A DNA stretch of 64,000 bases from Eutreptiella sp. 'Long Island Sound 2002' (taxonomy: Eukaryota > Euglenozoa > Euglenophyceae > Eutreptiales > Eutreptiaceae). Each line of letters opens with the position of its first letter. Positions within the stretch are counted from its first letter, which is position 1. The DNA is taken from contig OZ038385.1 of the NCBI GenBank assembly GCA_964036045.1, positions 20,860,720-20,924,719 of the forward strand. Reading direction: 5' to 3'. The notes beneath the pieces are model-generated. The model had not been told where the DNA came from. It searched no databases and worked only from the letters and a program-made list of their open reading frames with translations. The position numbers and the translations under genes were made by a program. Of this stretch, positions 2,971-52,412 are shown one piece after another.

Positions 2971-3037
2971 CCGAGCTGGTGGAACCAGTCTTGGTTTTAT
3001 AACCCTTTTTAGGGTCTAGGGTGGACCTACCAGGTTT

Positions 3038-5727: not shown

Positions 5728-7225
5728 ATATTAGGGAAACCCAAATCCCCAACAGGGCTCTTGAGGTCCTCAGGAAAGGGGGTTTTGAAGAACCAAGCAG
5801 GTCGTCCTCCATGAAACAGCTCGCGGGGGGTGAAACCCGTAGAAGAGCTTCTCTGAGAGTTCATGGTCAGCACTGCCCAGGGCACTAGGCGTACCCAGTC
5901 TTTCGTACGTTCGTGTTTCATCAGGATTCTCAGGTTCTATTCCACCACACGGTTTTTTCTCTCAAAAAGAGGGTTAAACGTGTGGTTGTAGGGCACACCT
6001 GTGGTTACCTCAACGTTGAGGGCATTCAGCATTCTTTTGTACCATCCAGTGTCACTGCGGATGCGTATATCCTCATCAGAGTGCACCTGCTTAGGTGCTC
6101 CATCGGGTTCGAACCATTGTTCGACCAACATTTTCACAGTCTGCTCACCTGTGATTTTCTTATTGCAAGGGAACACACGGGTTAAGCGAGACAGGCCACA
6201 GGTGACCACTAGGCAACTATCATAGCCGCCGAAGCGAGGTAGGCCGTGGATGAAATCAACATAGAGAAGAGAGTTAGTACAATAGGGTATGGGTAAGCTG
6301 GAAATCAGTCCCCTATCCCTACTGTCGCTCTGCTTGCTGGCATGACAGCCACAAGCATCCACAATGGTCTGCATACGAGACCTCAGTTCAGTCAGGGTTA
6401 GACTAGAGTAGAAACACTCACGGAAGAAGTCCACTGAGCGATTAGCGCCAGTGTGACCTGAGCTGAGATGGGACCACTGTAGGCACCCATCAAGCCGTGC
6501 CTCAGGCACGACAATACGGTCCTCGTAGAAGAGGTACTGGTTGTTTTTATACCACTGGTGCCCGTCAATGACACGGGGTTCGAGTCCAGTGCTGAGCGCC
6601 TGGAGAATTTCTTTATACTCTGACTGATAGTCAGTTAGGCTCCAACCCTCGAGGATTCCAGCAGTCCGCATGGAAAGGTCAAGCTGGACATCCATACGCT
6701 GGAAAGCCTCTTTAGCGAGTGCCTCAGAGCTCTCACCAATAAGCGCATTGAAGTTATTGCACGATATATAGTCAGACAGATCAATTTAGATCAAGGGATA
6801 TGATGGACTGTCAGCCTGAACTGGCTCAGGTAAGTCCACCACCGCTTTAGTTTCGCTTTCTCCGGTGGTGGGCCCTTCTGAAAAGACTTCACTGGTTCCT
6901 GGTCACAGAACCAGACAATAGGATTAGATCCCAATAGTCATTACTGTGATGAGAGCACCAACATACCGGCCAGGAGTTCCTGGTCGTAGGTGCTGTAATT
7001 GGAACGCGCTGGGTTCCGTTTCCAGTTCCAGTGTCCCAGTGGCACAAGCCGCCACTCACTGGTAGGATAGTCATGCTTCAAGGAGCCACCACGGTTCAGT
7101 CCGCTAGTACGATAATGGCAGTGGGTTAGTTCAGCTGGGTTAAGCTCCTGCCATTGGTAGATCGTTCCAACCCCCCTACATCACTGGCATCAGTGATCAG
7201 GACTATCTCGCCCTTAGGGCGGGGT
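5728..7225 (-). pseudogene. Element C (Ty3/gypsy) RNase H-integrase remnant, left copy
   Basis: Read right to left. RNase H comes first: the LITDASDVGG motif near 7195-7165, then YDQELLAGML near 6990. Next is an integrase. Its zinc-binding region has the GHTGANRS-type segment and a later Cys pair; core D1 is in LYVDF, D2 in VHSDED, and the Glu in FERKNR. The main frame (6695-5937, 252 codons) continues in another frame from 5921 to 5728, so there is a frameshift near 5930, and stops break the RNase H part. The C-terminal end is lost at the decamer satellite. The reverse transcriptase is not adjacent: element D interrupts C at 7225/60337. Inactive copy. Confidence 0.85.
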
Positions 7226-7804
7226 TGTACCAGACTTGAGCACAGAAGCATAAGAGCTGCAGAAATTTGCAGAAATTTCTGCTGATGATCGAGCATTGGC
7301 CTCGGCGCAACCAGCGCAATCGTCGCCCGTGCCAGAAATTCAGGATCTATGGACGTCGACATTTTCAGAGTTTTGGGATATGAAATTACAATTTTCAGCT
7401 CGATCCACATCCAATGAATCCAAAATGAGCCGATTTGGAGCAGTTTTCAGCTCAGCCCAAAATGGGATTGTAAAAGTATATTCCATCATTTTGGATATGC
7501 GAATGATTGATGTTTTGCCATGCTTGTGCTCTGGTCTCCCCGATCTTCCTCAAATCTGTCCGATTCTTGAGAGATTGGTATGTATTACCTCATTCATGGG
7601 CAACATTCATGGTTATAGGTAATGATCATGGGTAAAGGTTTGAAGAGATGTCACCATGAATTTTCGAGAGTGAGATGTAATCAGAATTTGATGAAGGTTC
7701 AGGGTAGGAGACATCTTCGCACTTAACCAAATCCTCAAGAGAGCACTCTCCCATGTTTGGTTCACAGACTTGAGCCGGCCCAAAAGTGTGTATTTCTGCA
7801 ATTG
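5807..7804. repeat. Target duplication 1, left copy (about 2.0 kb)
   Basis: Matches 17162-19147 throughout, with about 1% substitutions and an 11-bp length difference near 6850. It spans the C integrase/RNase H and the first 579 bp of the D LTR. The GC-rich element 7805-17161 lies exactly between the copies. Outside the copies both edges continue naturally: the integrase frame runs left past 5807, and the D LTR runs right past 19147. Confidence 0.9.
7226..7804 (+). repeat. Element D 5' LTR, left partial copy
   Basis: Starts TGTACCAG and matches the first part of the LTRs at 18569 and 59522. It is cut at 7804 by the GC-rich insertion. The 5 bp before it read GGGGT. Confidence 0.9.
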
Positions 7805-8448
7805 CAGGAGAGGGCATGGAGGCGGATCAGGGCGGAGGCAGCGAGGCTGGCGGACAGGGACAGGGAGGTGGCGGCGCGGGAGCGCAGGGTGCGGGAGGAG
7901 GAGGAGGCGGTGGCCCGGGGGGCCCACCGGGTCCTCCCGGATCCGGAAGGGGACACCCCCTCCACGGAGGTGGAGGGGCGGTCGCCGTCAGGGAAAAGGG
8001 CCAGGGAGGAGGACGAGGAGGCACTGGAGGAAAGGGGGAAGCGGCGCAGGGGGGAGGAGCGAGGGGCAGGGGAGGCAGAGGGGGCACCGCGGCCGGCCAG
8101 CCCCGGTCCGGAGCCGACGCCAACGGACTGGGGCTCGGAGTCCCCGCCGCCGCGGCAGTATGCGCCGCCGCCGGTGCGGAGGTGACCCGGGACGGTCGCG
8201 GGCTGGAAGGAGGGGGAGTGTCGGAGCTGGCCCGCTACGTGAAGTGGGCGGGGAAGACGAGGGGAAGGCGGGAGAAGAGGGCGCCCCGCCCCTTCAGTGA
8301 CCTGGTCGGCAGGGCGGGGAGGCCCAGGGAAAGGGGGCCGGAGATGGATGAGGGGCGGTGGAGGAGGATGCTGGGAGCGGCGCTCCCGGGGATGCGCCTG
8401 GACTGTCCCCAGGAGAAGGGGAAGAAGCCCAGGGTTCAGATGCTGTGA
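7805..8448 (+). pseudogene. GC1a ORF1, C-terminal part
   Basis: Two overlapping frames. The first (to 8185) gives a charged coiled-coil-like segment (AADRDREV-style heptads, RAREEDEEALEE) and a Pro-rich end. The second (to 8448) carries a domain with SELARYVKWAG and, about 40 residues on, WRRMLGAALPG. This matches the C-terminal domain of the GC2 ORF1 (RRWVKWAGG then AAWEALLRDAV) and GC1b (AAWEAMLADAL). A frameshift near 8160-8200 separates the parts. Its role is unknown; by position and composition it would be a nucleic-acid-binding ORF1-type protein. Confidence 0.55.
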
Positions 8449-9654
8449 GAGCTATTGCAGCGGGAGGGGCGGTACGGTGGCGACGCGTAAGGCCGGGCAG
8501 GAGCAGGAACGGGAAGCGCTAGGGGCAGGGGGCCAGGGGCGTGCGGAGGGACGGGCAGATGGGATGCGGGGAAGCGGACGCGGGGGGTCCGCGGAGATGG
8601 AGGAGGGTGAGGAGGGGATGTGACAGACACGAGGAGAGGAGGAGGGGAGCGGAGAGGTGCAGGTGCGCAGGGGAGGGCAGGGACATGGCTGAAAGTGGAG
8701 GGGGATGTGGTGATGGCGGACGCGGACGAGAACCCCGAGCGGAGAGCACAGGACCAGCGGCGGGGGAGAGGGGAGATGGGGCGGCGGAGTAAGGGGGCGC
8801 AGGCGAGTGAGGAGGAAGCAACCAGGCAGTGGGACGCGAGACGTATCGTGGGTACGGCGAGCAGTGTGGGGCAGAACGAGAAGCAGACAGGAAGCAGTAT
8901 CGGAATGTGGTACAGTGACGGAGCAGAGAGCAAGGTCGTGACTGGCGAGAACGGCCGGCGAAGGCATGGAGCAGCGCTGTGCCCTTCGGGTGCAGCACGG
9001 TGCCAGGGCTCTGACTTGCAGGAGAGGCGAACGGGCAGACGCATCCAATATTCCGACAAGTTGGTGCCAGGGTCTTGGCTGATGGTGTGATCGGAGAGAT
9101 TGCTGGGATGGGCTGGTGGCATTGCAGGTGTACTCGAGTGCGGTGCAGTGGAGCCACGTCTCGGTGGCGCCCCTGTGGACTGGCAGCCGGAGTGTGCGGG
9201 CTATCCGCCAACGTGGTACATGGCGGCAAAGCTCTCTGCATGACAGGATGGTGCTGCATTGAAAACATTGGACTTACGTGCGCCCTGCTCTGAGGGGTTG
9301 ACCACGCCAGGCCTTGGTGGCCACCGGCGCCATGGGACACCTGCCAGGTGCAACGGAGTGCGAACCTTTGTCTATGGGGCTGGGCTCCACAGCGCAAATG
9401 CAGCGACGGGAATTCGACAAGCCTCTCCCTGACGCTCTCTCTGTGTTCCTTCGGCACATGCGGTGGCTCATGGTTGGTAGGAAACCAACGGCCATGCCAG
9501 ACCTCGGGCAGGGCGACAGTCCAGTCCACAGATACACCCCCAGCCCCCCCCCCACACAGGGCACCAGGGAACCAGGATGGGGTGAGAGGCGGGGACCGAG
9601 GGAGCACTAGGGGGGGGGAGACCCCAGGGGAAAGGGTAGCGGCGAGGGGGAGGG
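8304..9654. repeat. Target duplication 2, left copy (about 1.35 kb)
   Basis: Matches 13589-14931 closely. It lies inside GC1a and covers the last bases of its ORF1 and its 3' non-coding region. The minus-strand element GC1b sits exactly between the copies. Open frames here on both strands are GC-driven and not supported as genes. Confidence 0.9.
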
Positions 9655-9664
9655 GCAGGGGTAG

Positions 9665-9677
9665 AGGTAGGTAGGTA
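9665..9677 (-). repeat. (ACCT)n tail of GC1b
   Basis: The plus strand reads AGGTAGGTAGGTA; on the element strand this is TACCTACCTACCT close to the 3' junction at 9655. Same tail unit as GC2. Confidence 0.75.
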
Positions 9678-10204
9678 TCTTCGAGAGCTCGGGATGCCTC
9701 CTTTGACATTGCAAGAAGAAGGTCTTACCAAGGGGATGTCCTGTTCCTCCCACTGCCCTATGTCAGGTGCCTCTTGAGCCGCTCCCGCATGTGCTTGGGG
9801 AGCCACCCGGTCCATGTGTCCCAGGTGGGAGGGTGTCCCCACATGTGTCCATGGGTATAGCCACATGCCCCCGCCTTTGGGCGGCAGCTCTGGGGGCTGC
9901 CCAGCCGTGTGGAGTATCTCTCACCACAAGGGGTATTGCTCCCGCTAGTCTACGGTACGACCGCCTCACCCTTGTGACTTGAGTTGCGGGGCCACTCTGC
10001 TTGGCAGGCGACCCCCTACTGGACTGTGTACCGGCTCGCCTGTCACCGGTTGCTTCCATGGCTCCGTGTGATGTTTGCCATGGTCCCCGATGCAGCCTGG
10101 CTGGGCTCGGACCAGAGGCCTTGGAGTACCGCTCCTGCCACTTGCCCGGTGGGTCGGCTGGGTCGCCCCAGTGCGTCCGACCCATGGGGTGTTGGTTCTT
10201 TCCT

Positions 10205-10960
10205 GTCCCTCGGCCGCCCTACGTGTGTGCAGTGTCCTGGGCCGCTTGGCTCCTGTTCACCGGTGTGCCCGCGCGGTTTGTTGTGTTGCGTCTGCGGTGT
10301 CCTAGGCCACTTGTCTCATGTTCACCGGTGTGCTCGCTCGGTGTGTTGTGTTGCGTTTGCGGTGTCCTGGGCCACTTGGCTCCCGTTCACCGGTGCGCCC
10401 GCTTGGTGTGTTGTGTTGCATGTGCGGTGTCCCGGGCCACTGGGCTCCTGTTCACGAATGCGCCCGCTCGGTGTGTTGCTTTGTGTGCGCGGTGTCCTGG
10501 GTCACTTGGCTCCTGTTCACCGGTGTGCCCGCTCGGTGTGTTGTTTTGTTTGTGCGGTGTCCTGGGCCACTTGGCTCCTGTTCACCGGTGTGCCCGCGCG
10601 GTTTGTTGTGTTGTGTCTGCGGTGTCCTGGGCCACTTGGCTCCTTTTTTACCGGTGTGTCCGCTCGGTGTGTTTTGTTGCATGTGTGGCGTCCTGGGCCC
10701 CTTGGCCCCCGCTCACCGGTGTGCCCGCCCGGTGTGTTGTGTTGCGTGTGCGGTGTCCTGGGCCACTTGGCTCCTGTTCACCGGTGCGCTCGCTTGGTGT
10801 GTTGCTTTGCGTGCGCGGTGTCCCGGGCCTCTTGGCTCTTGTTCACCGGTGTGCCAGGCCGTGGTGTCTCGTCCCTTTGTTGCCCTCGGTGCACGCGCGT
10901 GTGCGGTGTCCTGGCCCTCGTGGCGCCCGTTCACCGGTGTGCGCGCTGTGTGCGGTGTGC
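10205..10960. repeat. About 64-bp minisatellite, roughly 11 units
   Basis: A unit containing CTCCTGTTCACCGGTGTGCC and GGTGTCCTGGGCCACTTGG recurs near 10251, 10315, 10381, 10447, 10511, 10575, 10640, 10706, 10769, 10836 and 10925. Long Cys/Gly/Leu-rich frames through it are repeat artefacts. It lies in the 3' region of GC1b. Confidence 0.9.
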
Positions 10961-11524
10961 GTGTGCTATTGGTGGTTGTGTCCCTCTTCCCCCCCCCGTA
11001 ATTTTCGTTTTTTTTTTGTTGGAGAGAAAAAAGAAAAACAGGGGCGCGCGTACACTGGAGGCACAGGCACGGGCAGCTGGTCCGGCGGTGCAATAGTGTT
11101 GTGTCCTCTGGCGTGTATCGTCGGTGCTGTGGCGGCGGCCGCAGCCCAGGGGTGCGGCTCACACGTCCTGATGTACACGGGTATGGGCGAGGGTGGGTTT
11201 GGTTACGTGTCTCTTTGCTTCTGGAGCTCGCCGGTTAGGCGGCTGTGTGGGCTGTGGGTGTGGGCTGTGGCTACGTTGTTCCCTCGGCGGGCCTGGTTAG
11301 GAGTCAAGGGTTAGCGGTTTCGGGGTGTGGCTCGGGTTTGATTTGTGTTTGGGTTTTGGCTCGGTTAGGCTGTTGCGACGGTAGCGGGCCTGGGTTCGGT
11401 GCCTTTGGGCGTAGTGGTGCCCGTTGTCGTGTGCGTTGGCATCCTTCGGCGTCCAGTTTGTTTGGTGACTTCTGGGCGGGGCCTGGCGTGGCGCCCCGTG
11501 GTGGTGGTTTGCTGGGCAACGGGG

Positions 11525-13571
11525 TTAGGTGGCGGCGCCGCAGGCCGGGGGGTCAGGCGCGTCGTGTTGTGTGGCGCGCAGGGCTCCTTGGGTGCTGTGG
11601 GTGCCGCCGGTGTCGGTGCGCCGACGCTTGTGGGGTGGTGAGGGGGTGTGCGTGTGCGGGGCTGGGCTTTGGGTGATGTCCGACAGGCGGATGCCGTCTC
11701 GCTGTGTCTCCTGGAGGGTCTCCCGCAGGCGCCTGAGGACATACGGGTGGTCCTGGGGCGTTGGGAGGTTGCGGGGGCAGACTCCCAGGGGGTGGAGCGC
11801 ATCGGCCAGCATGGCTTCCCATGCGGCCTGCGGCATCCACCCCCCCGCCGGCCGGAGGCGGCAGTTCTCCACCGACCCCTTGCGGGGCCCGTGGACCAGG
11901 CCCTCAAGGGAGGGCTCTCCCCGGGCCCACCCTCCAGCTCCCAGAGCTGCGTGTGGGTCCAGCGCTGCCACCTGTCCCTGGGCGGGGCCGCGGTCTTGGA
12001 CGGAGGAGTGGGCGTGGTTGGGTGTGACGGGGTCGTGGGGACCGGTGGCGGTGGCGGGCCCGGGGGATTCCTCGTAGTCCTGTACCGTGGGGGTGCGCGG
12101 GGAGTGGGGGCGCGAGCGGATGTGGACCCGCGGGTCTGAGCGCACGGTCTCCGCCTCGGGGTTGGGTGGGGACTCGCGGCGGCGGCGGTAGCGGGGCATG
12201 CGCTGTATGTGGGCTGTCATCGAGGGTTGGTAGGGGGGCGGGGACTCTGCTGGCGGACCCTGGCGTCGTTCTGGCCTGGTCGGGGGCGGTCCTTGGGCCT
12301 GGGGTGCGGCCTTAGAGAGGTGGCGGGACGAGGTGTGTCGTGCTTCGGCCGCGGCGCGCTCCGCTATGAAGGTGGTGGCGGCGGCGTCGGTGACGGTGGG
12401 GGTGCGCCGTGCTGGGCGCTGCTGCCTCCTGGCCTGGGATGGCTGGGGCCGAATGTCATAGAGGACGTCCTCGGGGGGTCGGGCTGGCGCTGTCGTAGTG
12501 GCGCCGGGTTTGGACTTGGGTTTGGGCTTGGCTGCGGGTTGCGGTCGTGGCGCGCTGACGGGTTTGGGTGGCTGTTTGGTGGCGGTCTTGGGTTTTGGCT
12601 GGGTTGCGGGTGCGGGCCTCGTTGGGGCGTGGGCCTTGGCGGCGGCGGGGTTGCTCGCGGTGGGGGCAGGTTTGGGGGCCCGTTTGGGAGGTGTCCCCCT
12701 CGGCCTGGGGGGTGGAGTGCTGGATGAGGACGTGGTGGTGGTGGTGGATGAGGTGGCCGTGGTGGTGGAGGTTGTGGAGTCGGAGGCGGAGGAGAGGGCT
12801 GTGGGAGACGGCGGATGGCCCTCGGCTTCGGGGGCGGGCGTAGGATGCTGGGTCCTGCAAGTAGCGACAACGAGGGTGCGGGTTTGGGCACAGGGCGTGT
12901 GCGCGCGTTTTCTCTGGTGACCCGTGCGTGCTGGTGCTGGTGTGGCGGCGTTGTCTGGGCTGTGCGGGCACGTGGGTTACCCGGGGGGTGGCCATATCTG
13001 CTCCAGGACGTGCGGGTGTGTTTGCTGGAGGTAGTCGAGGGTGCGGAAGAAGCATCGCTGGATGCCGGGCATGTCCTCCCCTGTGAGGTGGGGGTAGTTT
13101 TGGGTGGGGGTGTCTGGGCCCGGCCACAGCAGCGCCATGAGGCGGGCTGCCACCATGTATGGGCAGAGCTGTAGGGTGGTGGGGCGTGGGGGGCTGGGTC
13201 CCCTGCGGTTTTAGGGGGGCTTCCCTCTGCTGGGGGCGCAGCGTGACCCTCCACAGCCACCGGTCCGTGGGGAGTCCCCAGGTCCGTTGGGTCCACTTGG
13301 CGAGGCAATACATCGCCCTACCAAGGCCCTGGCTGCCGCTGCGGATGGAGAGCAGGGTGTCCAGGGATTTGCGTTCCCACGTGCCCCAGATGTGGGGGTC
13401 GTCCGGCTCGTCCCCCCTGGCGTACGTGTCGAGGCCTGGGTTGTGTAAGGGGGGGGCGTAGTCGGCGGGGAGGAGGGAGTCGGTGCCGTGCACCTCCCAG
13501 TGGTCAGTTGGTGCGTGGTAGTGGGTGGTGGAGAGGGTGTAGTGCAGATTGTACATGAGAGTCATGTACAT
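11525..13571 (-). pseudogene. GC1b ORF1 (Pro/Arg-rich), frameshifted
   Basis: Read right to left. The N-terminal part (from 13571) contains GTDSLLPADYAPP and a helical segment ending TWGLPTDRW, matching GC2 residues GTDTMFAPKTAPP and HWPPTGTVPW. A second helical block (about 13174-12985, with LCPYMVAARLMALLW) lies in another frame, then a long Pro-rich stretch, a short RS/SP patch, and a C-terminal domain with MPQAAWEAMLADAL near 11840. At least two frameshifts separate these parts, so this copy is not expressible as one protein. Confidence 0.6.
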
Positions 13572-13588
13572 GGAGGGGGTTGGCTGCC

Positions 13589-14931
13589 GGTCGGCAGGGC
13601 GGGGAGGCCCAGGGAAAGGGGGCCGGAGATGGATGAGGGGCGGTGGAGGAGGATGCTGGGAGCGGCGCTCCCGGGGGTGCGCCTGGACTGTCCCCAGGAG
13701 AAGGGGAAGAAGCCCAGGGTTCAGATGCTGTGAGAGCTATTGCAGCGGGAGGGGCGGTGCGGTGGCGATGCGTAAGGCCGGGCAGGAGCAGGAACGGGAA
13801 GCGCTAGGGGCAGGGGGCCAGGGGCGTGCGGAGGGACGGGCAGATGGGATGCGGGGAAGCGGACGCGGGGGGTCCGCGGAGATGGAGGAGGGTGAGGAGG
13901 GGATGTGACAGACACGAGGAGAGGAGGAGGGGAGCGGAGAGGTGCAGGGGCGCAGGGGAGGGCAGGGACATGGCTGAAAGTGGAGGGGGTTGTGGTGATG
14001 GCGGACGTGGACGAGAACCCCGAGCGGAGAGCACAGGACCAGCGGCGGGGGAGAGGGGAGATGGGGCGGCGGAGTACGGGGGCGCAGGCGAGTGAGGAGG
14101 AAGCAACCAGGCAGTTGGACGCGAGACGTATCGTGGGTACGGCGAGCAGTGTGGGGCAGAACGAGAAGCAGACAGGAAGCAGTATCGGAATGTGGTACAG
14201 TGACGGAGCAGAGAGCAAGGTCGTGACTGGCGAGAACGGCCGGCGAAGGCGTGGAGCAGCGCTGTGCCCTTCGGGTGCAGCACGCTGCCAGGGCTCTGAC
14301 TTGCAGGAGAGGCGAACGGGCAGACGCATCCAATATTCGGACAAGTTGGTGCCAGGGTCTTGGCTGATGGTGTCATCGGAGAGATTGCTGGGATCGGCCG
14401 GTGGCAGTGCAGGTGTACTCGAGTGCGGTGCAGTGGAGCCACGTCTCGTAGGCGCCCCTGTGGACTGGCAGCCGGACTGTGCGGGCTATCCGCCGACTTG
14501 GTACATGGCGGCAAAGCTCTCTGCATGACAGGATGGTGCTGCATTGAAAACATTGGACTTACGTGCGCCCTGCTCTGAGGGGTTGACCACGCCAGGCCTT
14601 GGTGGCCACCGGCGCGATGGGACACCTGCGAGGTGCAACGGAGTGCGAACCTTTGTCTATGGGGCTGGGCTCCACAGCGCAAATGCAGCGACGGGAATTC
14701 GACAAGCGTCTCTCCGCTCTCTCTGTGTTCCTTCGGCACATGCGGTGGCTCATGGTTGGTAGGAAACCAACGGCCATGCCAGACCTCGGGCAGGGCCACA
14801 GTCCAGTCCACAGATACACCCCCCCCCCCCACACAGGGCACCAGGCAACCAGGAAGGGGTGAGAGGCGGGGACCGAGGGAGCACTAGGGTGGGGGAGACC
14901 CCAGAAAAAAGGGTAGGGGCGAGGGGGAGGG
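13589..14931. repeat. Target duplication 2, right copy
   Basis: Second copy of 8304-9654. After it GC1a continues with sequence not found after the left copy, as expected for a duplicated target. Confidence 0.9.
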
Positions 14932-17145
14932 TGGCACACACGAGTGACAGCGCGGCACAGACAGGGAGGGCAGACGTACAGGCAGGGTCGACAGCGAGAA
15001 GGAGAATGGGATGGGAGACAGGCGAGAGAGGGGGCGCAGGGCGGCGGGACAGGGGTAGCACGGAGAAGAGCAGGGGGCACACGCAGGGCGCGCGGGAGCA
15101 GCGGGGAGCGCGAACACGGAACAAAAAAAAACAACAACAGGACAGGCGGACACACAGGAAGGGCACATAGAGGAGGCAGGGCGCGGGAGGTGGGGGGAAC
15201 AGGGGGCCAACAAGGGCGCAAAGGAACACAATGCCTCTCACAGAGAAGCACCATGCCGTTGACCCGCATAGAGCCGTAGCGGCCGCCCCGCCCGACCATC
15301 AGGGAACTGATGGAGGGGCGGCCGGCGGGAGAGGTCGACGGGGGAGTCCCCCCCAAGGGGTGTCTGGGGAGGCCGCCCAGGTCGGCTTACAGGTCGGAAG
15401 ACAGGGCAGAAGCCCAGAGGCGCGTGAGGGCGCGCGAGATACAACCATGGCGCGGGGAGGACCAGCGGCGAGCACACGGAGCAGGAGAACAACACTAAGA
15501 GGGCGGGCAGGAGACAGAGGGGAGGGGAGGGTAGAGAGGAGAGAGAGAAGATACATGTACAACAACGCGGGCTAAAAGGCTGGGTCGCCCGTATGGCCGG
15601 GGACCGCCAAGGGCCACGACACAGGATGGCGGTGGGACTGGACGAGAGCACCGAACGGAACGGAGACAGATGGCGATGCAGTGTTGTTGTGCATGCATGC
15701 AGGGAGGAGGGAACCACGCGGAAAAAAGCGCGGCAAAAAAAAAACGCGGACAACACCTCGCAGCACCACAAGGAGACAGGACAGAAAAGGACGAGTGGCT
15801 AGGGCCACACGACGGCCCCAGGGGACTAGGACAGCATGGGAGGCGGCACAGGAGTGAGGGGCGGGGGCGGGAGGGGAGCGACCCGTGCTAGGCGCACAAA
15901 ACGGTCCCCGGATGCATGAGGATCTAGTGGGCCCGCGCCACAGGGTTGCTGGCGGCCCGGTGGGGTATAAACACGGGATGAAGGATGGGATGGGGACGCA
16001 CAACAACGCAGGGGATTAGGCCGGGGCCGCGGCACAGGGGAAGGGGGCGGGAAGGGAGCGACCAATGCTAGGCGCACGAAACGGTCCGCGGATGGATGGG
16101 GATCCAGTGGGCCCGCGCCACAGGGTTGCTGGCGGCCCGGTGGGGTATGAACACGGGATGAGGGATGGGATGGGGCCGCACGACAGCCCAGGGGATTAGG
16201 CCGGGGCCGCGGCACAGGGGAAAGGGACGGGGGCGCGAAGGGAGCGACCCGTGCTAAGCGCACGAAGCGGTCCCCGGAAGGAAGAGGCTCCAGTGGGCCC
16301 GTGCCACAGGGTTGCAGGCGACCCGGTGGGGTATAAACATGGGATGAAGGGACAAGGGGACGGGGCGGGGAAGGGCGTGTGGCTAGAGCCACACAACGGC
16401 CCGACGGGGTAGGTAGTCCATGGGACCCCGGGAACGGGCCGGTGCCGGGATGAGGCAAAGGAGAATGGGACATGGGATGGGCAGGGAGGCCGAAAGCGCC
16501 AACCAACAGCCCCATGGGATTGGGAAACCAGTCGCCATGGAGTGGTGAACCATGGGCCAACCATGGGAAACCTGACCACGGGAAGTCGGGAAAATGCCCT
16601 GAACTCCGGGACGGCCGTGAGGTGTCGGCAGGGGTGAGGGTTGACCTTGAGATCCCCGGGTCAATGGCCTGAGTACACGTAGGTTCACGCGTGAGCGGGA
16701 CCAGGGGGAACGTGGAAAGGGTTGTCCCCTGGCCTCCAGCTGTGGATGGACGACAACAAAGTGCATCCGGGAGCCGAGTGGGTACTCCAACCCGTGAGGG
16801 ATGGGGAGTGGTGGAATGTGGTTGACAGAGAGAAATGCTCCGCTGTCGGCGAGGGCTATCCACAGGAAACCCGCCTGCAGGCGCCCAATAGGCTGTGCTA
16901 GGGGGGGAAGGCCGGGGGATCCTTCAAAGGGTGACCGGAAGGAGCTGAAACCCTGAGGGCAGCGACTGAAGGGAGCCTACCGCCGGTCATGCCCCAAAGG
17001 AACCTGGTTGAAGTTCTCGGCCGTGAGGTGAGACAGGGGTCGCCAGGGGAACTGATGGTGGGGAGCACTCCTTCCCGCCAGAGGCGGCCACCATGTAAAA
17101 CAAACAAGGATAAGTCAGATGAGGCTGCGGACGCGGCCGCCCTTA
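14932..17145. other. GC1a 3' non-coding region
   Basis: GC-rich and without a supported gene on either strand. It holds a 180-bp tandem repeat (15850-16390) and then unique sequence up to the tetranucleotide tail. Confidence 0.6.
15850..16390. repeat. About 180-bp tandem repeat, 3 copies
   Basis: GGGAGCGACC followed by TGCTAGGCGCAC recurs near 15878, 16058 and 16244. Each unit also has CCACAGGGTTGC then GGTGGGGTAT. Confidence 0.9.
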
Positions 17146-17161
17146 TTAACTTACTTACTTA
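17146..17161 (+). repeat. (ACTT)n tail of GC1a
   Basis: TTAACTTACTTACTTACT ends exactly where the right target copy begins (CTCCATGAAAC). Confidence 0.75.
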
Positions 17162-20865: not shown

Positions 20866-20922
20866 ACAAAACAAGCCACAAGGAATCCACAATTTGAGTC
20901 TTGCCACCCTCCTGGACTCTCC

Positions 20923-23321: not shown

Positions 23322-23414
23322 ACTACCGTTTTAAGGTTACCATGGTTGATTTCATTTAAACTCAGATGAATCTGTCAATTTAACCCAATTGAACACAATT
23401 GAACAGGGACAGAA

Positions 23415-40512: not shown

Positions 40513-40522
40513 GGAGGGGGAG
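40513..40522 (+). promoter_or_regulatory. Element A polypurine tract
   Basis: GGAGGGGGAG directly before the 3' LTR TG, preceded by a short T run. Plus-strand primer site. Confidence 0.9.
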
Positions 40523-41784: not shown

Positions 41785-42340
41785 TCCATTTGACTACGTG
41801 GTGGAGAGAGACTTCTATGCTACTGTATGCAAGAAGTTTTCTTCGACGATGCCTAAAGTGGATGTTTTCGGCGGCAGTGGAGATTCCAATGCTCAAAAGG
41901 GTTTTACTGACCCGTACTGCAGTGTTTGGAGTGCATATTATTGCTTCATAAACACAAAGTATGAAGACATGCACCGGGTCATAGACAAAATAGTCCATGA
42001 AAAGGTACGGGCTATTCTCATCGTTCCTGCCTGGCATCATAGGCATTGGTTTCCCACACTCACTAGGATTACCACAGCCGCCTACCGTCTGCCATTGTAG
42101 GTGCTACAAATGCGTAATGGTGCTAGCAGCCCCCTCCCTCGTATTTTTTCCCATCTTGCTTGCTTGGTGGATGGCTCATTGATCCCCGTTGCACACTTGG
42201 ATGGTGAACCAAAGGACACTTTGAACAAGGATACAACGGCCAAATTGTGTAATATTGTCAATGACATTACGGGCTGTTCCCTGTTTGGCAGTAACAAAGC
42301 ATGTGCAGCAACCATTGTTGCCACAACATCCCAAAGTCAT
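41785..42340 (+). pseudogene. Element D methyltransferase-like domain (decayed)
   Basis: The frame at 41798-42100 encodes FGGSGDSNAQKGFTDPYCS, INTKYEDMHRVIDKIV and ILIVPAWHHRHWFPTL. It aligns with the element A domain that has NPPF and ILVVPLW. The catalytic NPPF position reads NTKY here, so activity is probably lost. A TAG at 42098 and a later frameshift (before 42350) break the frame. Confidence 0.65.
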
Positions 42341-42540
42341 GTGCGATTCGTCACATCTGTGATGTTACTCATTCCACACCTCCTGTAGTGCATCATTCTC
42401 TTGATCGTGATTACCTCACGGATATTGAGTACTCCTCAAGTGAGGGTGACAACACTTCAGATTGGGGATCCAACAGTAGTAGCAATAACACTTGCCTATC
42501 AGACTTTTCAGATCAAGCACTGCCACAAGTGAGTGTCAAA

Positions 42541-42939
42541 AAGTTGTCTAAATCAGCGGTTTTACCAACCAGGGGAACCATCGGCTCGGCCGGGATGGAC
42601 CTTTGCGCGGCCACCTCTATAAATATACCTGCAGGCGGACAAGTGCTTGTCCCCATTGATCTTGCTTTCACGCTTCCTGATGGTCTTTACATGCAATTGG
42701 CTTCCCGATCAGGGTAGGCTGCACACCAGCGTGTACAAGTAATAGGTGGTGTCATTGACAAGGACTACAGAGAAAATGTAAAGATCATTTTAGCACATTT
42801 GGGCAGTAGTGATTTCCCTGTCAAATGCGGTGACCGCATTGCACAGATGTTAGTACTTGCCACACCGGACTTTAGTTTGGTGGAAGTGGATACTTTACCA
42901 TCCACACAAAGGTCCACATTGGGTTTTGGGAGTACAGGT
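42541..42939 (+). pseudogene. Element D dUTPase
   Basis: All five trimeric-dUTPase motifs are readable in order: GSAGMDLCA, LASRSG, GGVIDKDYRENV, GDRIAQMLV and RSTLGFGSTG. dUTPase converts dUTP to dUMP and limits uracil in newly made DNA. A single in-frame TAG at 42715-42717, just after motif 2, interrupts it. It lies between protease/methyltransferase-like and RT. The left target-duplication copy starts inside the last motif region (42887). Confidence 0.85.
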
Positions 42940-44632
42940 GTGGCTTCAGCAAAGGCTACTATAAACAATGTCACAGGGGAACATCCCGGTTGTGAGCAGA
43001 TCCCCACGATCAACGTTTGGGTCTATTGGTGGTCCCACAGAGGATGTCACACAATACATATCTAGTGACATTTGTTTTTGTCGTTGTAATCGTTGCCGTT
43101 CTCATCTTGGATGTAATGCATGGTCAGTCTTCAAACGCTTGCTTTCTAACGATATTCAACCAAAAGACACATGCTTGCCATTTCAATCACGCCAACACTC
43201 TCCACATGTGTCCAGGGTCCACCAAATTTTAGGTTCCGGCAAGGTTCATCAAATCCCGTTAACACATAATGGCGACGAGGCCACACACAGCGCAAACATC
43301 TTCAAAGTAGTTGACAATGGGCCTAAGATTGAGGATCCTAAGTACTCCGAGTACTTGCAGTTTTACTTGGATGAGTATTCCAAGGATGTGCTTAGCGGAA
43401 ATGTCCCAAGGACAGCTGAAGACATTGTGCGTGGACCTTTCGGCTATGCGCGTATATTCAAAAACCCTGAAGCAGTTCCAAAACGCCAAAGCCCTTTTCC
43501 TCATTTAGGTGAACGAGGTGAAGCCTGAAGGTGAAGTTGAAAATTTTTTGTAATAAAACGAAATTTGCATGTAAGAGGATGGTTGGAAGAGGTATCTGGT
43601 GGCAGCGATTGGAGCTCCCCACCCTTTACTGTTCCCAAGCCCGTGCCTGCGGACTCCCCCCTTTTGGATAAGTGGAGGTTGGTCATTGACTTCCGATAGC
43701 TGAATTCGCAGACACGTGAAGATCAGGCTCCATTACCCCTCATTGAGGATATGCTTGAAAAACCTGAGTCTCACCGAATTTTTTCGGTCCTTGATTTGAA
43801 GCACGGTTTTCACCAGATGCCGTTGCATCCAGATGATAGGTACCTCACAGCTCTGTCCACACCTTTTGGTACGTTGCAATGGAAGGTTTTGCCAATGGGC
43901 GTCAAAAATGGACTTGCACAGTTCCCAAGCCTCATGGATTGAATTTTGCAACATAGGGGGTTGGACGAAAAAGACGGAGATGGTAACTGGAAATTTGTGT
44001 ACGACCCCCTGAAAAAGGCTTCCATCTACATTGATGACCTCATCCTTGGGTCACCAGACATCCACACCCATTTTGAGGACCTCCGCCAACTTTTGGAAGG
44101 GTTGAGAAATTGGTTCATTGTTTGCGAGGGTCAAGCAAAGGACAAGAATCAATTGTTTGTTACACAAGTGGAGTTTTGTGGACAGATCCTCAGCAACGGA
44201 ATTCGGAGGCCTTCTCCTGGTGCCTTCATGGCCATTGAAAAGTGGCCTCGACCCCAAACCGTCACTCAGCTCCGTAGTTTTCTTGGCGTCTGTAGTTATT
44301 ACCATGTGTATATCCGCAACTATGCTCATTTGGTCGGCCTCCTTCAAGATCTTTTGAAGGTCGGCAAGCAAGCTGGCCGCAAGGGCAGTAAAGTGAAGGT
44401 AAACTGGTGTACAGAGCATGATGCCTCATTTCAGGCGCTAAAAGATGCCGTTTGTGGTATCCGCAACTTGCGCTTGTATAAACCCGACCATCCTTTTTAC
44501 CTTCGTTGTGATGCCAGTGATGTAGCCGTAGGAGCAGCACTAGAGCAATACGATCCTGTAGCGGGAAAAATTGTTCCCATTTGTTTTTGGTCCCGGAAAC
44601 TCACTGAGGGTCAACGAAAATGGACTTCCCGG
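42887..44632 (+). repeat. Target duplication 3, left copy (1746 bp)
   Basis: Matches 50667-52412 over the same length with about two differences seen (near 44252 and 44466). GC2 lies exactly between the copies. dUTPase reads into the left copy and RNase H reads out of the right copy. Confidence 0.95.
42968..44632 (+). pseudogene. Element D RT and N-terminal RNase H, left (truncated) copy
   Basis: A linker (42968-43528), then stops near 43527-43542, then RT motifs: SPFTVPKPVP, VIDFR followed by TAG, LDLKHGFHQMPL, LPMGVKNGLAQF, a TGA where Trp is usual, and IYIDDLIL (44024-44040). RNase H starts with LRCDASDVAVG near 44505 and is cut at 44632 by GC2. The in-frame stops show this lineage was inactive before GC2 arrived, as the right copy has the same stops. 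Confidence 0.85.
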
Positions 44633-47600
44633 AGCAGTGGGAACAGGCCACCGCGCCCAACCGCGACACCGCCCTCCGCGCCGCCGGCCTCCGCACCCCG
44701 GACGACGACCTCCCCCCCCCACCTACAGACAGTGACCACCCCCCGCCGGAGGTCTGGGTTACAGTCCTCGAGCGCGGCCACTACTACGTGATAGCCGCTA
44801 TGGCTACGTCCCACGGCCCGCAATGGATCATCCAGGGGACAGACACCATGTTCGCCCCGAAGACCGCCCCACCAGGGGCAGTGGGGGACCCCACCACCCA
44901 GCACAGGATCCTCAGGGGTCTCCTCCAGCCAAGGGACACGCCCCCAGCCCGCGCCCTGGCCCAAATCACCTCAGGGAAGGCGGGCTACCACCTGGGATTG
45001 TCCATGCTCTGCCTAACCCACTGGATCCAGCGCCACTGGCCACCCACGGGGACCGTGCCCTGGGTTTGAGCCATCCCCACCGCCCACACACAAGTCGAAG
45101 CAGGCCCGGACACACGACCAAACCCCCCCCCCAGGCCGCAGCAGTCCCTCACCTGCGGGTACCACGCCATCCACAGGGTCCTCAACCGCGCGGGTCTTAG
45201 CCCAAAGCTAGCATGCCCCCTTCCCACCACTGACCAAGAGGTCCACCAGATACGAACGCTCGTCTGCGAAATCCTTGCCGCGGCAGCAGAAGACGGCAAG
45301 CTTCTCCTCCAAACCGCCCGGCCTACAACTGCCCACGCAAGCGCGCAGCAAGCGGACACATACACCGGCGCAGCACAACCCCCCGCACAATCCCCGCCCA
45401 TGCCCCCCCCCTCTCGCTGCTCAACCGGAGACCCACACACGCCCACTATCGCGCGCACCCCCGGGCCCCGCGACACGGGCCTCCCCCACCCGCCCGAACA
45501 CCAGCACACGCCCGCCACACACCCACCCACCGGCCACCCTTCACCGCCCCCCACACTCGACAACCCACACACACCCGCCAAGGGGAGCCCCACGCCCCGC
45601 CGCACGCCCACCCCACCCAGTGGCCCGCCCACGCCCCCCACACACACCCCAGAGGACCCAGGCCCACGCCCCCCGGCCCCTGAATGCAGCCCACGCGAAC
45701 TGTTCCCCCCCGCTGACACAAACCCACACGACCTCGCACATTGCAGGACCCGGGCCCAGCCGAGCCCAGAAAGAGAAGGCCGCAGCCCCGCGCCTCCCTC
45801 CCCCGCCGCAGCCGACCAGATCGGCCCGCCGGGCCGCCAGGTCACGACCGGGCCCCCCCAGCCGCCCGCCCCCAACCTACAACCCGGGGACATGCCCTCC
45901 ATCCTCCCCGCCGTGGCCGCGGCAGAAGCCGCCGCCCGCAAGCCCGCCCGCATCACAGCCCAACCCGCGTCCACCACCTCCTCCTCGTCCTCAGCCTCGT
46001 CCACCTCCTCCACCTCATCCTCCGACCCCCCCCTCCCCGCCAAACTCATCCTCAAGGCCACGGCGAAAGCCAAAGCCGCGGCCGCACGCACCAACCCCCC
46101 AACCCCCACACAGGCGACTCAGGCACCCCGGCAACCCACCGGGACGACCCCCGACCCGGCATCGACGCCCTCACACCTCCGGACAGAGGTACTCCTCAAC
46201 CTGGAACCGGACCCCAACCCCAAACCCGACCCCAAACCCAAACCGGACCCCAACCCCAAACCCAACCCCAAACCCAAGCCGGCGCCCACGCGACCACACA
46301 CAACACCGCATACGCAACGACACAAAACCACCCGATACCACCCCCACCCAGGCCCTCGCCCAAGCCAGGACCCCCCACCCACCACGACCCGCGCCCCCCT
46401 CCCGCCGGCACCCACCACCACCGCGGAGACGGCCACCCAGCACGACCCCCTCCAAACCCTCGTCAAAATCCCCGTCATCAAACGCCCCGTCATCCATCCC
46501 CCACAAACCACCACCACCGCCGGCCAAACCGACCCAGGGACGTGGGACCCCTCAACCATCGTCACCGTCAAGCCCGCCCCCCAACCCTTCCTCCATGCCC
46601 ACCACATAGTGCAGCCCCGGGGACTGCCCACGATGCCCAACCCCCCACCCCCACAAGGGGGACCGGAAAACCCACAAGGACTCCATGGGCCATACCCGCA
46701 ACACCAACCCCACCACTACACACACCACCACCACCAGCGGCCCCACCACCACCACTACCAACACCACCCCCACCTCTACCACTGCCCACCGCCCTACCCC
46801 ACCGGGCCACAACCCCCCGTACACCAACAGCACCAGCGGACGGGATGGCAGCCGCCGAACGCCCCGCTTGCATACCCACCCCCCCCGTACCAGCCACCAC
46901 CCCCGTACCAGCCGTACCCCCGCGGCCACCATCCGATGGCCGAGGGGGCCCCATGGACGACGGGGGATCTCCCCCCCCAACCAGCACCGCGTGACGCCCC
47001 GTACCCCCCCGGCCACCATCCGATGGCCGAAGGGGCCCCAAGGACGACGGGGGACCCCCCCCCCCAGGCGGCGCCGCGCGAGCCCCCCCAGAGGCCGCCG
47101 ACGCTTCCGGACTGGCCCGACTCGAGCGACGAGGGCCGGTCCCGCAAGCGGCGGCGCTCCCGCTCCCCCCCCGCACGGCACACTCGCCCACGGCGCCCAC
47201 ACTCCCACCGCGCCTCAACCACCCACTCGCGCCGCTCCCGCTCCCCCAGGTACCACCACGACCCCCAGGGACCCCGCTCCCGTCGCTCCCGCTCCCCCGG
47301 GCACCGCCACGAGCGCCACCGCCGCCCCATGTCCCCCTCCCCCTCCCCCCACCGGCCACCCAGCCCCCGCCACCACCACTCCCGCTCCCCCCGCCGCCAC
47401 CCCACGTCCACCTCCCCCTCCCCCCACACGCCCCGCCGGGCTCCCCGTTCCCCCCGCCACCCGTACCCATCCACCACCCCCAGCCCCCGCCACCACCACT
47501 CCCGCTCCCCCGGACGCCACCGAGCGCGCCACCGCCGCCCCATGTCCACCTCCCCCTCCCGCTCCCCCCTCCGCCCGTACCCGTCCTCCACCCCCAGCCC

Positions 47601-48129
47601 CCGCCGCCGCCGCTCCCGCTCCCCCAGCCACCGCCACCCCCGCCACCACCTCAGGTCCACATCTTCCCCCCGCCGCTCCAGGACCCCAGGCACGGACCCC
47701 TCCCCCCCCCGGGCCCCCGCCCACCTCGCCTGGTGGTCTCCCTCCGCTCTGCAGGAGCTCCGCCGCTGGGTGAAATGGGCCGGGGGAGCGGGAAGACACA
47801 GAGGGGTGCACACGGTGCATACCTTCGAGGAGGTGCGCACCCGCACCCCCGCAAACCCCAATGAGGCCGCCCCGGAGACCATCATGCCGCAAGCGGCATG
47901 GGAGGCCCTCCTCCGCGATGCGGTCCAGGGCCTCCGCCCCCCCTACACCCCCCAAGCCCTCCGCCGGTGGCTCCAGGCCACCCACCCCCAAGCCTGGGCC
48001 ACCGGCGCCCCCTCCCCACCCCGCCCCTCCCACCACCACCACACCAGGAAGGGGCAGGACAAGGGCAAGGGAAGGGCAAGGGACACCAAGGACCACACAG
48101 GCAAGAGGGCACGGAAGGGCCCCAAGTGA
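44633..48129 (+). pseudogene. GC2 ORF1: Pro-rich, RS-rich protein (one stop)
   Basis: About 1165 codons in one frame with a single TGA at 45067-45069 (CGA by one transition). The only nearby ATG (44620) belongs to the target. Segments: N-terminal domain with GTDTMFAPKTAPP and HWIQRHWPPTG; a second helical block (45154-45320, HAIHRVLNRAGLSPK); a long Pro/Thr-rich region; His/Tyr/Pro-rich 46700-46950; an RS-type region 47130-47680 full of SRSP and RRSRSP; and a C-terminal domain with RRWVKWAGG and MPQAAWEALLRDAV, ending Lys-rich. The first, second and last segments have counterparts in GC1b, the last also in GC1a. Likely an RNA-binding ORF1-type protein; function inferred from composition and position only. 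Confidence 0.6.
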
Positions 48130-50646
48130 GGGCAGGCACACGCAGGGACAGGGCGCCGGAAGCGACACCACAGGGGGTCAGGACACCACCCAAGAACCAG
48201 GAAGGAACGGGAACGGGGACCAAGACACGGAGGAAAAGGGCACCACGACACCCCCAGAGGACACGAGACCAAGGCACAGGCCCCCAGGGAGGGCAACCCC
48301 ACGGACCGTCACGCGACCACACCATGGGCTATAAGGGCCGGGCTGCGCTACCGTCGCGGTTTGACGCAGAGTATTGCTACGGGGGCTTGATCTCGGCTGG
48401 TCTCACGTCTGTGAGGGCGTCCGTCACCAACCTGTTGCGTCCAGTGGAGGAATGGCACTGCGGCGGCGCACCGATCCCGTCCATGATGAATATCGAGCAT
48501 CGCAAGGGGAAACGAAACGCTGTGATCCATCGCGAAGGCTTTGGTGCTGCTGGACGGTGCCCCCCTTCAACGCCATCTCCGAGCGCCGTGAAGACTGGAA
48601 GTACCAAGAATACTACCGATGCCCCGGACCCCAGCAGTCCAGCACCGGAGATATGGACATCCCCCTGACCCTACAGTGTGAGCTCATCCCTGCCGGCGGC
48701 ACCGACCCGGACCCTGCCAGCGCAGCCGAGCTGCAGTGAAAGCCATTCGCCACTCAAACAGCGTTCGGAAGCCACCTCCACCGTCCGACTCCTGATGTCT
48801 GTTTGTCTGCCTTGGAGAAGGAACGCTTTTCCTACACCCCGAGTACACCTGCCTGTCTGCGAGGCCCGGTGAAGATTGAGTCCGTGGGTGAGAGTCAGTG
48901 TGCACGCCCCAAGGACACCGTGATCATTCAGCAGAATTTCCCGAAGACCTAACCGACCCACACAGGCCAGGCTGACCTCCACTGACCCACCGCGGCACCA
49001 CGCGAGACCACGGCACACCACACCACAGCGCGCCACAGAGCAACGCACCACAGCACGACGCGACGCGACGCGGCACAGAGCGGCACAACACGACACAACT
49101 GACCCTAACCTGAGGGACTAACCGAAGCCAGCCACCGCACACCCGGGAAGGCGCCGCGCCACCACGCCACACACCGGCACCACAGGCCACACACGGGACC
49201 ACAGAGCGCCAGGCGACAACGGTGACGGACCACCCAGAAGATTACAGCCGGCACCGCGGAGGGGTAAGGACACGAGCAACCCCAGCCCCCTAACCCAAAA
49301 CCACAAGCAGCCGCCTGGCGCAGCCGCCCAGCCGGCAGAGCCAGGACCTAACCCAGCAAGAAGGGGCGCCGAGCCCACAGTGTACAGAGCCCACCCGACC
49401 CATGGGGCCGGAACATGGCCACACAGAACCCAACTGAAAACAGCAGCCCGGAAGACAACACTGAATACAGGCCAGTGCGTGCGCCAGCCCAGGGAAGGCA
49501 GAGGGAGGAACAGGCAAGCCCCCCCCCAAAAAAAAAAAAAAAAAGGAGGGGGGAAGGGGAAAAGGCACGAAAACAGCCCACAGCCGCCCAACCACCCGCC
49601 AACACCACCACAGGCGGCCAGGCCCCCCCCCCCAGAAAAAAAAAAAAAAAAAAAAAGGGGGACCCCCGCAGAGGCACAGGCGAACCACCCACCCAAAACC
49701 GGCAACACCAAGCCAGTAACAGCGGACCACGGGGAAAAGGGACAGAAAAAAAAAAAAAAAGAGAGCCACCAGCCCAGCCCGAAAGAAAGGGGATGGAGGG
49801 ACAGGGACCACAAAGCCCAAAAAAAAAAAAAAAAAAAGAAAAGAAAAAACCAAAGCAAAAAAAAAAAAAAACACACCCCGACAACCCAACCAAGACGGAC
49901 TGGGCACAGGCGAGACCCGGGCCCGGCACACACGCCCACACCGCGCGCCGGAACCGGAAACGGCGGGGGGCAAGCGGGGCGCCCACGAAACCACACACGT
50001 CCCAAAAGCAGACCGAAACCGAAGCCAAACCACGAACACCACAAATAGCCGACACTAGGGGGACAACACCACAAATTGAGCCCAAAAACACCCACCCTAA
50101 ACCCCAGCCAGGACAGACGGGGTTGACAAAACCCGCACCCAACCGCCAACCGGACCCAAACACAAACACCACACAACAGTAGGAAACCCAGTGCCCACAG
50201 CCCGGGCACTGAGGCAGCCCGTGCCATGCAGGTGACCCGGCCAAACGAGATCCGGAGCCCGGGGGTAAGGCTGCATCCTAAGGCCTGCGCTGCTTTGGGA
50301 CTCGAGGCGGACCGTGCGACACCCAAGCGCCTCGGAACCCTAGTACCAGGAACGTGCATGCACGCCTTGGGAACGGGATACGCCAGGAAGTCCGGTGAAC
50401 CCCTAGGGTTCCGCCCAAAGGAGGGGACGTGCGCAAGCACGGGGGCACACCCTCCCGGCGAGACAAGCATGTCACGCTGGCGGCGATCAGCCCTCCCGGC
50501 GTGGCCCGGGGCCGCTTTGTTGGGGGCCAACAGTCAGGTCTAGCGGGAAGTAAGCCGCCTCCCCTCTTCACGCGCGAAGCCTCTTCCTGTTCGTCACAGG
50601 GGCGACGCCAGGGGGAACCATGGGGCGCCTCTCCACGACCGAGTGC
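48130..50646 (+). other. GC2 3' non-coding region
   Basis: 2.5 kb without a supported gene. Includes a degenerate GCACC/GACGC-rich stretch (48980-49110), homopolymer clusters (49520-49871) and a last GC-rich 450 bp before the tail. Long minus-strand Phe/Gly/Cys-rich frames are artefacts of the A and C runs. Confidence 0.6.
49528..49871. repeat. Cluster of long A runs
   Basis: Five A runs of about 15-21 nt (starting near 49528, 49636, 49746, 49819 and 49857), most next to C or G runs. Confidence 0.9.
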
Positions 50647-50665
50647 ACCTACCTACCTACCTACC
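50647..50665 (+). repeat. (ACCT)n tail of GC2
   Basis: ACCTACCTACCTACCTACC directly before the right target copy. Confidence 0.85.
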
Positions 50666-50666
50666 C

Positions 50667-52412
50667 TGGATACTTTACCATCCACACAAAGGTCCACATT
50701 GGGTTTTGGGAGTACAGGTGTGGCTTCAGCAAAGGCTACTATAAACAATGTCACAGGGGAACATCCCGGTTGTGAGCAGATCCCCACGATCAACGTTTGG
50801 GTCTATTGGTGGTCCCACAGAGGATGTCACACAATACATATCTAGTGACATTTGTTTTTGTCGTTGTAATCGTTGCCGTTCTCATCTTGGATGTAATGCA
50901 TGGTCAGTCTTCAAACGCTTGCTTTCTAACGATATTCAACCAAAAGACACATGCTTGCCATTTCAATCACGCCAACACTCTCCACATGTGTCCAGGGTCC
51001 ACCAAATTTTAGGTTCCGGCAAGGTTCATCAAATCCCGTTAACACATAATGGCGACGAGGCCACACACAGCGCAAACATCTTCAAAGTAGTTGACAATGG
51101 GCCTAAGATTGAGGATCCTAAGTACTCCGAGTACTTGCAGTTTTACTTGGATGAGTATTCCAAGGATGTGCTTAGCGGAAATGTCCCAAGGACAGCTGAA
51201 GACATTGTGCGTGGACCTTTCGGCTATGCGCGTATATTCAAAAACCCTGAAGCAGTTCCAAAACGCCAAAGCCCTTTTCCTCATTTAGGTGAACGAGGTG
51301 AAGCCTGAAGGTGAAGTTGAAAATTTTTTGTAATAAAACGAAATTTGCATGTAAGAGGATGGTTGGAAGAGGTATCTGGTGGCAGCGATTGGAGCTCCCC
51401 ACCCTTTACTGTTCCCAAGCCCGTGCCTGCGGACTCCCCCCTTTTGGATAAGTGGAGGTTGGTCATTGACTTCCGATAGCTGAATTCGCAGACACGTGAA
51501 GATCAGGCTCCATTACCCCTCATTGAGGATATGCTTGAAAAACCTGAGTCTCACCGAATTTTTTCGGTCCTTGATTTGAAGCACGGTTTTCACCAGATGC
51601 CGTTGCATCCAGATGATAGGTACCTCACAGCTCTGTCCACACCTTTTGGTACGTTGCAATGGAAGGTTTTGCCAATGGGCGTCAAAAATGGACTTGCACA
51701 GTTCCCAAGCCTCATGGATTGAATTTTGCAACATAGGGGGTTGGACGAAAAAGACGGAGATGGTAACTGGAAATTTGTGTACGACCCCCTGAAAAAGGCT
51801 TCCATCTACATTGATGACCTCATCCTTGGGTCACCAGACATCCACACCCATTTTGAGGACCTCCGCCAACTTTTGGAAGGGTTGAGAAATTGGTTCATTG
51901 TTTGCGAGGGTCAAGCAAAGGACAAGAATCAATTGTTTGTTACACAAGTGGAGTTTTGTGGACAGATCCTCAGCAACGGAATTCGGAGGCCTTCTCCTGG
52001 TGCCTTCATGGCCATTGAAAAGTGGCCTCGACCCCAAACCGTCACTCAGCTGCGTAGTTTTCTTGGCGTCTGTAGTTATTACCATGTGTATATCCGCAAC
52101 TATGCTCATTTGGTCGGCCTCCTTCAAGATCTTTTGAAGGTCGGCAAGCAAGCTGGCCGCAAGGGCAGTAAAGTGAAGGTAAACTGGTGTACAGAGCATG
52201 ATGCCTCATTTCAGGCGCTAAAAGATGCCGTTTGTGGTATCCGCGACTTGCGCTTGTATAAACCCGACCATCCTTTTTACCTTCGTTGTGATGCCAGTGA
52301 TGTAGCCGTAGGAGCAGCACTAGAGCAATACGATCCTGTAGCGGGAAAAATTGTTCCCATTTGTTTTTGGTCCCGGAAACTCACTGAGGGTCAACGAAAA
52401 TGGACTTCCCGG
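50667..52412 (+). repeat. Target duplication 3, right copy
   Basis: Second copy of 42887-44632; begins TGGATACTTTACC and ends TGGACTTCCCGG. Confidence 0.95.

Follow-up and report, generated by a model that had tools for sequence, protein, structure and literature searches.

The 64,000-nucleotide stretch of the Eutreptiella sp. 'Long Island Sound 2002' genome analyzed here (hereafter "the window"; C8:20860720-20924719) contains three GC-rich elements (GC1a, GC1b and GC2), each of which sits between two direct copies, 1.35-2.0 kb long, of the sequence that it interrupts. The data support these repeats as genuine target-site duplications (TSDs) made by insertion of the GC-rich elements, and the elements themselves are, by their sequence, 5'-truncated copies of three related giant non-LTR (long terminal repeat) retrotransposons (long interspersed nuclear elements, LINEs). 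We consider it probable that all three cases arose by ordinary target-primed LINE insertion in which the break used to join the second end lay 1.3-2.0 kb off, where ~13 bp would be usual.

Self-BLAST of the window delimits the three repeat pairs. The copies of target A (5807-7804, from the integrase region of a Ty3/gypsy element on the - strand; and 17162-19147) are 97.3% identical, those of target B (8304-9654, part of GC1a; and 13589-14931) 97.0%, and those of target C (42887-44632, in the reverse transcriptase [RT]/RNase H region of a Ty3/gypsy element; and 50667-52412) 99.89%. Length and identity of the pairs rule out chance. The inner edges of all three pairs, as read from the edge sequences, adjoin a GC-rich element directly, and the coordinates and borders given in a preliminary description of this DNA proved correct to the base. 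GC1a (7805-17161, + strand) is interrupted by GC1b and its duplicate (9655-14931), i.e., its span includes GC1b and the second B copy, leaving ~4.1 kb of its own sequence; GC1b (9655-13588, - strand) is thus nested in GC1a, and GC2 (44633-50666, + strand) matches a longer copy of its family (L018/L029) at 98.7%. Each element has tetranucleotide repeats as a tail at one end: (ACTT)n at 17149-17163 (+) in GC1a, extending 2 bases into the target, and (ACCT)n at 9665-9676 (-) in GC1b and at 50647-50665 (+) in GC2.

That the repeats are pieces of the interrupted sequence is evident from their outer edges. We searched the source genome (2.28 Gb, 2,205 contigs) with queries in which the border lay at position 300/301, leaving the window's own rows out of the counts. 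Among the matches listed, the left edges of A and B were each crossed by 39/39 paralogue rows (for A with an outer side of ~60-66 bases), the right edge of C by 32/39 (6 at ≥90% identity, the rest mostly at 65-76%), and the left edge of C by 6/11, the other 5 stopping short of the border; the 7 non-crossing rows at the right edge of C include one that begins at 301 (70% identity) and one that begins at 304, which a separate insert explains. At the right edge of A, a gypsy paralogue within the window (59507-60336) passes through uninterrupted and serves as an empty site. For both edges of B, two GC1a-family copies (L033 and L035) align in one piece to the joined 4,080 bp single-copy site (1-4078 and 1-4080, respectively), and two paralogues of C (C4:57.61M and C3:146.55M) cross both edges with a single ~1.7 kb copy between them (distances taken from match positions). 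Uninterrupted paralogues at all six outer edges bear out the earlier proposal that these edges continue naturally into the interrupted element. A paralogue on C22 that breaks only 4-8 bp beyond the right edge of C, where GC2 has its 5' junction, raised the possibility of a hot spot shared between insertions. This was rejected: with its inverted ends, the 1.7 kb insert in this gypsy paralogue (L050, C22:6057300-6059100) resembles an unrelated element of the DNA type, and its position is apparently a coincidence.

Targets A and C lie inside Ty3/gypsy elements and target B inside GC1a. In target A, an integrase core (PF00665) was detected in 5940-6785 on the - strand, just under cutoff (1.9e-7; 31.7 bits, cutoff 32.6). 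The Ty3/gypsy host of target C (41194-54735, +), traced from pol pieces to chromodomain by tblastn with the pol of 33823-38877, is interrupted by GC2 and has a dUTPase domain in 40891-42800 (6.3e-16) and a chromodomain in 53683-54738. When the pol of another gypsy element in the window (30290-41055) is aligned by tblastn, it covers 43277-44632, ending exactly at the edge of the left C copy; at the right C copy the match begins at 51057, passes the border at 52412 and continues to 52715. The pol pieces that precede this part are found to the left of the left copy, and those that follow it to the right of the right copy. This other element is itself an intact-looking Ty3/gypsy chromovirus, with 533 bp LTRs that are 99.4% identical, a 4 bp TSD (cagt) and long open reading frames (ORFs; 951 and 1,684 aa), of which the longer matches RT, RNase H, integrase and chromodomain. 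The gypsy family of target A also occurs in the 3' flanks of 4/20 GC2-family copies (L016, L017, L021 and L022), and in 2 of these it directly adjoins the insertion point.

The nature of the GC-rich elements emerges from their relatives elsewhere in the genome. Searches with the last ~460 bases of each element gave 1,198 (GC2), 2,048 (GC1a) and 1,129 (GC1b) first-look candidates; at least 39 other 3' ends per family are near-identical to GC2, 96-97% identical to GC1a and 93-94% identical to GC1b. From outside the window we fetched 20 GC2-family and 4 GC1a-family copies (none of GC1b). In both families the copies have their 3' end in common and differ in their 5' start points, and the GC1a-family tails are (TTAC)n in L032-L035; the tail of the longer GC2-family copies is (ACCT)n. 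The longer GC2-family copy (L029/L018) contains, upstream of the part present in GC2, open frames that match RT and, weakly, an endonuclease, with LINE-1 ORF2 proteins as their best PDB match (2.4e-13). RVT_1 is found in L029:5652-9998 on the + strand (2.1e-15; 57.4 bits vs. a cutoff of 29.6), and Exo_endo_phos (PF03372) is a weak match (2.1e-4; 21.6 bits, gathering score 24.5). In the translation, GDMN, SRID and GHS are visible, motif names used for AP-like endonucleases, and the stretch after the RT is presumably RNase H-like. The giant LINEs probably encode an APE-type endonuclease, and GC1a and GC1b may be supposed to carry the same enzymes as the GC2 family.

The three families are also linked by their last ORFs, which in GC2 and GC1b have a C-terminal domain in common (E 5e-5) that recurs in GC1a (E 3e-5), each value coming from a single comparison over a short stretch. 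In GC2 this last ORF of the LINE is the open frame 44635-48126 (+), with proline-rich and RS-rich parts and one in-frame TGA (codon 145). No Pfam match was obtained in the scanned pieces of the window's GC-rich elements, the GC2 open frame included, and the impression of a Ulp1-like protease at the start of that frame, which came from its H, D and C residues, has no Pfam support. Rfam gave 0 matches at gathering score, and no relatives of the elements were confirmed in viral contigs. The 3' regions of GC1b and GC1a contain minisatellites (10225-10855 and 15843-16352, with units of 65 bp and 180 bp, respectively), and the insertion site of one GC2-family copy (L010) has sequence resembling the 65 bp unit.

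These LINEs are very long. The L018 element measures ~17.8 kb and is itself truncated; since 8/13 copies tested have in common, at 92-100% identity, a further 576-607 bases that adjoin its 5' end on the upstream side, the full element exceeds 18.3 kb. One copy (L019/L042/L049) is element-like for >21 kb without coming to an end, and parts of its outermost 3 kb resemble the shared 5' region (77-85%); from this single copy the GC2-family LINE probably reaches 21 kb. Across L049, L042 and L031/L029/L018, the element has a repetitive 5' region with a recurring motif like CAGCCAGGAGTGGCGAGG and at least three long ORFs. With APE-type L1-like LINEs it has in common an RT domain, a weak APE match, 5' truncation, a 3' tail and TSDs of variable length; it differs from them in being >18 kb and GC-rich, and in having an extra downstream ORF without a family match and a 3' region of ~2-3 kb. 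The L1 tail is poly-A, and the giant LINEs have a tetranucleotide tail instead.

Outside the window, a TSD was measured in 8/24 fetched copies; six of the eight are ~8-15 bp long, and the other two 84 bp and 274 bp. Within the GC2 family, the 5' end was seen in 8 of the 20 copies and a TSD in 7 of these 8 (~13 bp each in L010, L015, L017 and L018; 8-9 bp in L020; 84 bp, 97.6% identical, in L013; 274 bp, 98.2% identical, in L024), and the sole GC1a-family copy measured outside the window, L032, has a TSD of 13-15 bp. Where tail bases or microhomology are common to both sides, these lengths are accurate to within a few bases. As the values elsewhere are ~8, 13, 13, 13, 13, 13-15, 84 and 274 bp, a spread exists: TSDs of the GC2 family alone extend from short through intermediate to long (8 bp to 1,746 bp), and all copies, the window included, range from 8 bp to 1,998 bp.

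The remaining copies add negative results of unequal power. Among the matches listed, no second flank copy of at least ~100 bp was found for L023, L026 and L028 (a fair test, ≤2 mismatches/100 bases) or for L027 (likewise fair, 1 mismatch/100 bases), nor for L011 and L022 (a weak test, excluding only a perfectly identical copy) or for L014 of the GC2 family and L033 of the GC1a family (weak, as these copies are older); the same outcome for L035 of the GC1a family comes from a test with next to no power. In L009 a TSD above ~1.2-1.3 kb is excluded, a shorter one not. Five GC2-family copies (L012, L016, L019, L021 and L025) and one GC1a-family copy (L034) gave no usable TSD information, the flanks of L016 and L025 being high-copy. 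L012 has a 1.4 kb repeat at its 3' side, 89% alike; we attribute this to a target that is itself homologous to the element family and did not count it as a TSD. TSDs of ≥1 kb thus number 0/8 among those measured outside the window, or 0/12 with the fair negatives (L023, L026, L027 and L028), placing the upper 95% bound on their frequency at 31% and 22%, respectively; a TSD of ≥100 bp was present in 1/8. The wider reading of the preliminary description, with long duplication as the rule for these elements, is not supported, with six of eight TSDs elsewhere at ~8-15 bp and none at ≥1 kb. In this small sample the flanking repeats are mostly short in the GC2 family—the very result that the description had named as speaking against its claim—with one GC1a copy measured and none of GC1b.

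A shared 3' end, a tail and variable 5' truncation argue for target-primed reverse transcription. In such an insertion one target strand would be nicked and the tailed RNA copied from the nick; the growing complementary DNA (cDNA) end would then be joined to a second break, usually ~8-15 bp downstream, giving a short TSD. For the window copies the second break would have lain 1,351, 1,746 and 1,998 bp downstream (i.e., at a remote nick or a broken sister-chromatid end), and joining at this remote break followed by fill-in would duplicate the whole stretch between. We infer both the order of these steps and the nature of the second break. The orientation of the elements, with the tail adjoining the start of a target copy and the truncated 5' end adjoining its end, is that expected of target-primed insertion with the second break downstream of the first. 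Microhomology at the 5' junction, scored by eye against longer relatives, amounts to 5 bp in GC2 and 2 bp in GC1a; in copies with short TSDs it is 5 (L017), 0 (L018) and 0 bp (L020), and in L013, with its 84 bp TSD, 3 bp. The range is alike in long- and short-TSD cases.

Comparable duplications are on record for human L1. In one study (PMC5223499), TSDs in cells deficient in nucleotide excision repair (NER) range from 5 bp to 5.3 kb with a median of 1,495 bp, vs. a median of 14 bp in corrected cells, and L1 TSDs >100 bp in HeLa cells never exceed 10% of events. The same study offers a remote second nick as speculation for the kilobase TSDs made without excision repair, and describes the second-strand cut of LINEs as still poorly defined. 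The likeness to our cases lies in the TSD size range, the target-primed LINE class and the tailed inserts; on the other hand, those were engineered L1 elements in cultured mutant human cells, whereas ours are natural copies, with measured TSDs mostly of ~13 bp, in a large eukaryotic genome. With kilobase TSDs from distant second-strand sites already in print for human L1 (PMC5223499), the view that a wholly new mechanism is needed finds no support, and the window cases look like extreme outcomes of a known insertion process, here in natural copies. No paper on natural kilobase LINE TSDs was found in the literature searched, partly with narrow phrases and with subscription papers outside the scope; a 7 nt TSD described in PMC10219456 has no bearing on these cases.

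A special case of target-primed insertion, whose odds overlap with those of the general account, couples it to replication. The first nick would become a one-ended break at the fork and the cDNA end would be joined to the broken sister chromatid 1.3-2 kb downstream, so that the duplication would be a small unequal sister exchange with the LINE at the join, not the product of a double nick on one chromatid. We give this variant a substantial probability, though somewhat short of an even chance. Two nicks on one duplex could, we reason, only with difficulty be spaced 1.3-2 kb apart, and the 5' junctions show microhomology. A tumor study (PMC7058536) accounts likewise for tandem duplications with L1, the cDNA being joined to a downstream break and bridging sister chromatids; there too a LINE stands at the join of a direct duplication, although its direct tandem example spans 22.6 Mb and ours span 1.3-2.0 kb in a genome assembly. 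However, the sequence would look no different had the remote nick been on the same chromatid, and the TSDs of 84 and 274 bp point to a continuum.

Readings in which insertion did not make the duplicates fare worse. The genome is repeat-rich and assembled in 2,205 contigs, the evidence comes from the assembly, and the A and B duplicates, 2-3% divergent, could be alleles; haplotype pieces might then have been joined at the element ends, creating false second copies. Yet in each of three cases, one of them nested, both inner junctions would have had to form precisely where an element ends, the window contains no N, and TSDs of 84 and 274 bp occur in copies elsewhere. The duplicates differ at 42/1,986 (A), 32/1,343 (B) and 2/1,746 bases (C), i.e., by 2.1-2.4% for GC1a and GC1b and 0.11% for GC2, and the best relatives among the matches listed are near-identical at the 3' end for GC2, 97% identical for GC1a and 94% for GC1b. 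Duplicate divergence thus appears to go with element age—young with young, older with older—which an artefact would not predict, and for this reason we hold an artefact to be improbable; within error, A and B are about equally old, compatible with the nesting. Insertion of each LINE exactly at the junction of a pre-existing tandem duplication would yield the same final arrangement, but demands three exact coincidences, and the single-copy C sites at C4:57.61M and C3:146.55M hold one ~1.7 kb copy; a pre-existing tandem repeat is very unlikely. Least credible, to the point of being negligible, is that the long direct repeats flanking a GC-rich interior are 1.35-2 kb LTRs of LTR retrotransposons: gypsy coding sequence is present in the A repeats (integrase) and the C repeats (RT/RNase H), which run outward into the same gypsy elements, the B repeats belong to GC1a, and the paralogues refute the reading by exposing the repeats as pieces of other elements that continue outward.

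Several observations nevertheless weigh against our account of target-primed insertion with a distant second join. An RT was seen in the GC2 family only, and the endonuclease match remains below the Pfam gathering score (21.6 vs. 24.5 bits). L026, a GC2-family copy with a visible 5' end, has no TSD; at its locus (C3:34160426-34170425) it is directly joined head to tail to another partial GC2-family copy. Support comes from assembled sequence, in which TSDs were sampled mostly from GC2, hardly from GC1a, and for GC1b only in the window. TSDs >1.3 kb make up 3/3 in the window vs. 0/8 outside (Fisher 0.006), a post hoc comparison on a window chosen for this feature and so not a fair test. Three of three in one window fits a simple rare-outlier model poorly, though selection of the window may suffice to account for it. 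The giant LINEs could instead have two outcomes, a ~13 bp mode and, distinct from it, a kilobase mode in which a distant break serves to complete the insertion, with some chromosomal regions or periods favoring the latter so that nested duplications pile up; we think this unlikely, if well short of negligible.

Elsewhere in the window, a 553 bp sequence occurs in two copies that are 97% alike (3443-3995 and 4820-5371), with AAGGCCC...GGGCCTT near its ends, like a terminal-inverted-repeat element.

It is unusual that three kilobase TSDs, two of them nested, lie in one window while 6/8 measured elsewhere are 8-15 bp. These data present LINEs that are >18 kb long and that duplicate gene-sized stretches of their target. 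With its many near-identical natural copies, whose TSDs range from 8 bp to 2 kb, this genome would allow second-cut distances to be measured as a distribution in nature and compared with the data from human repair mutants.

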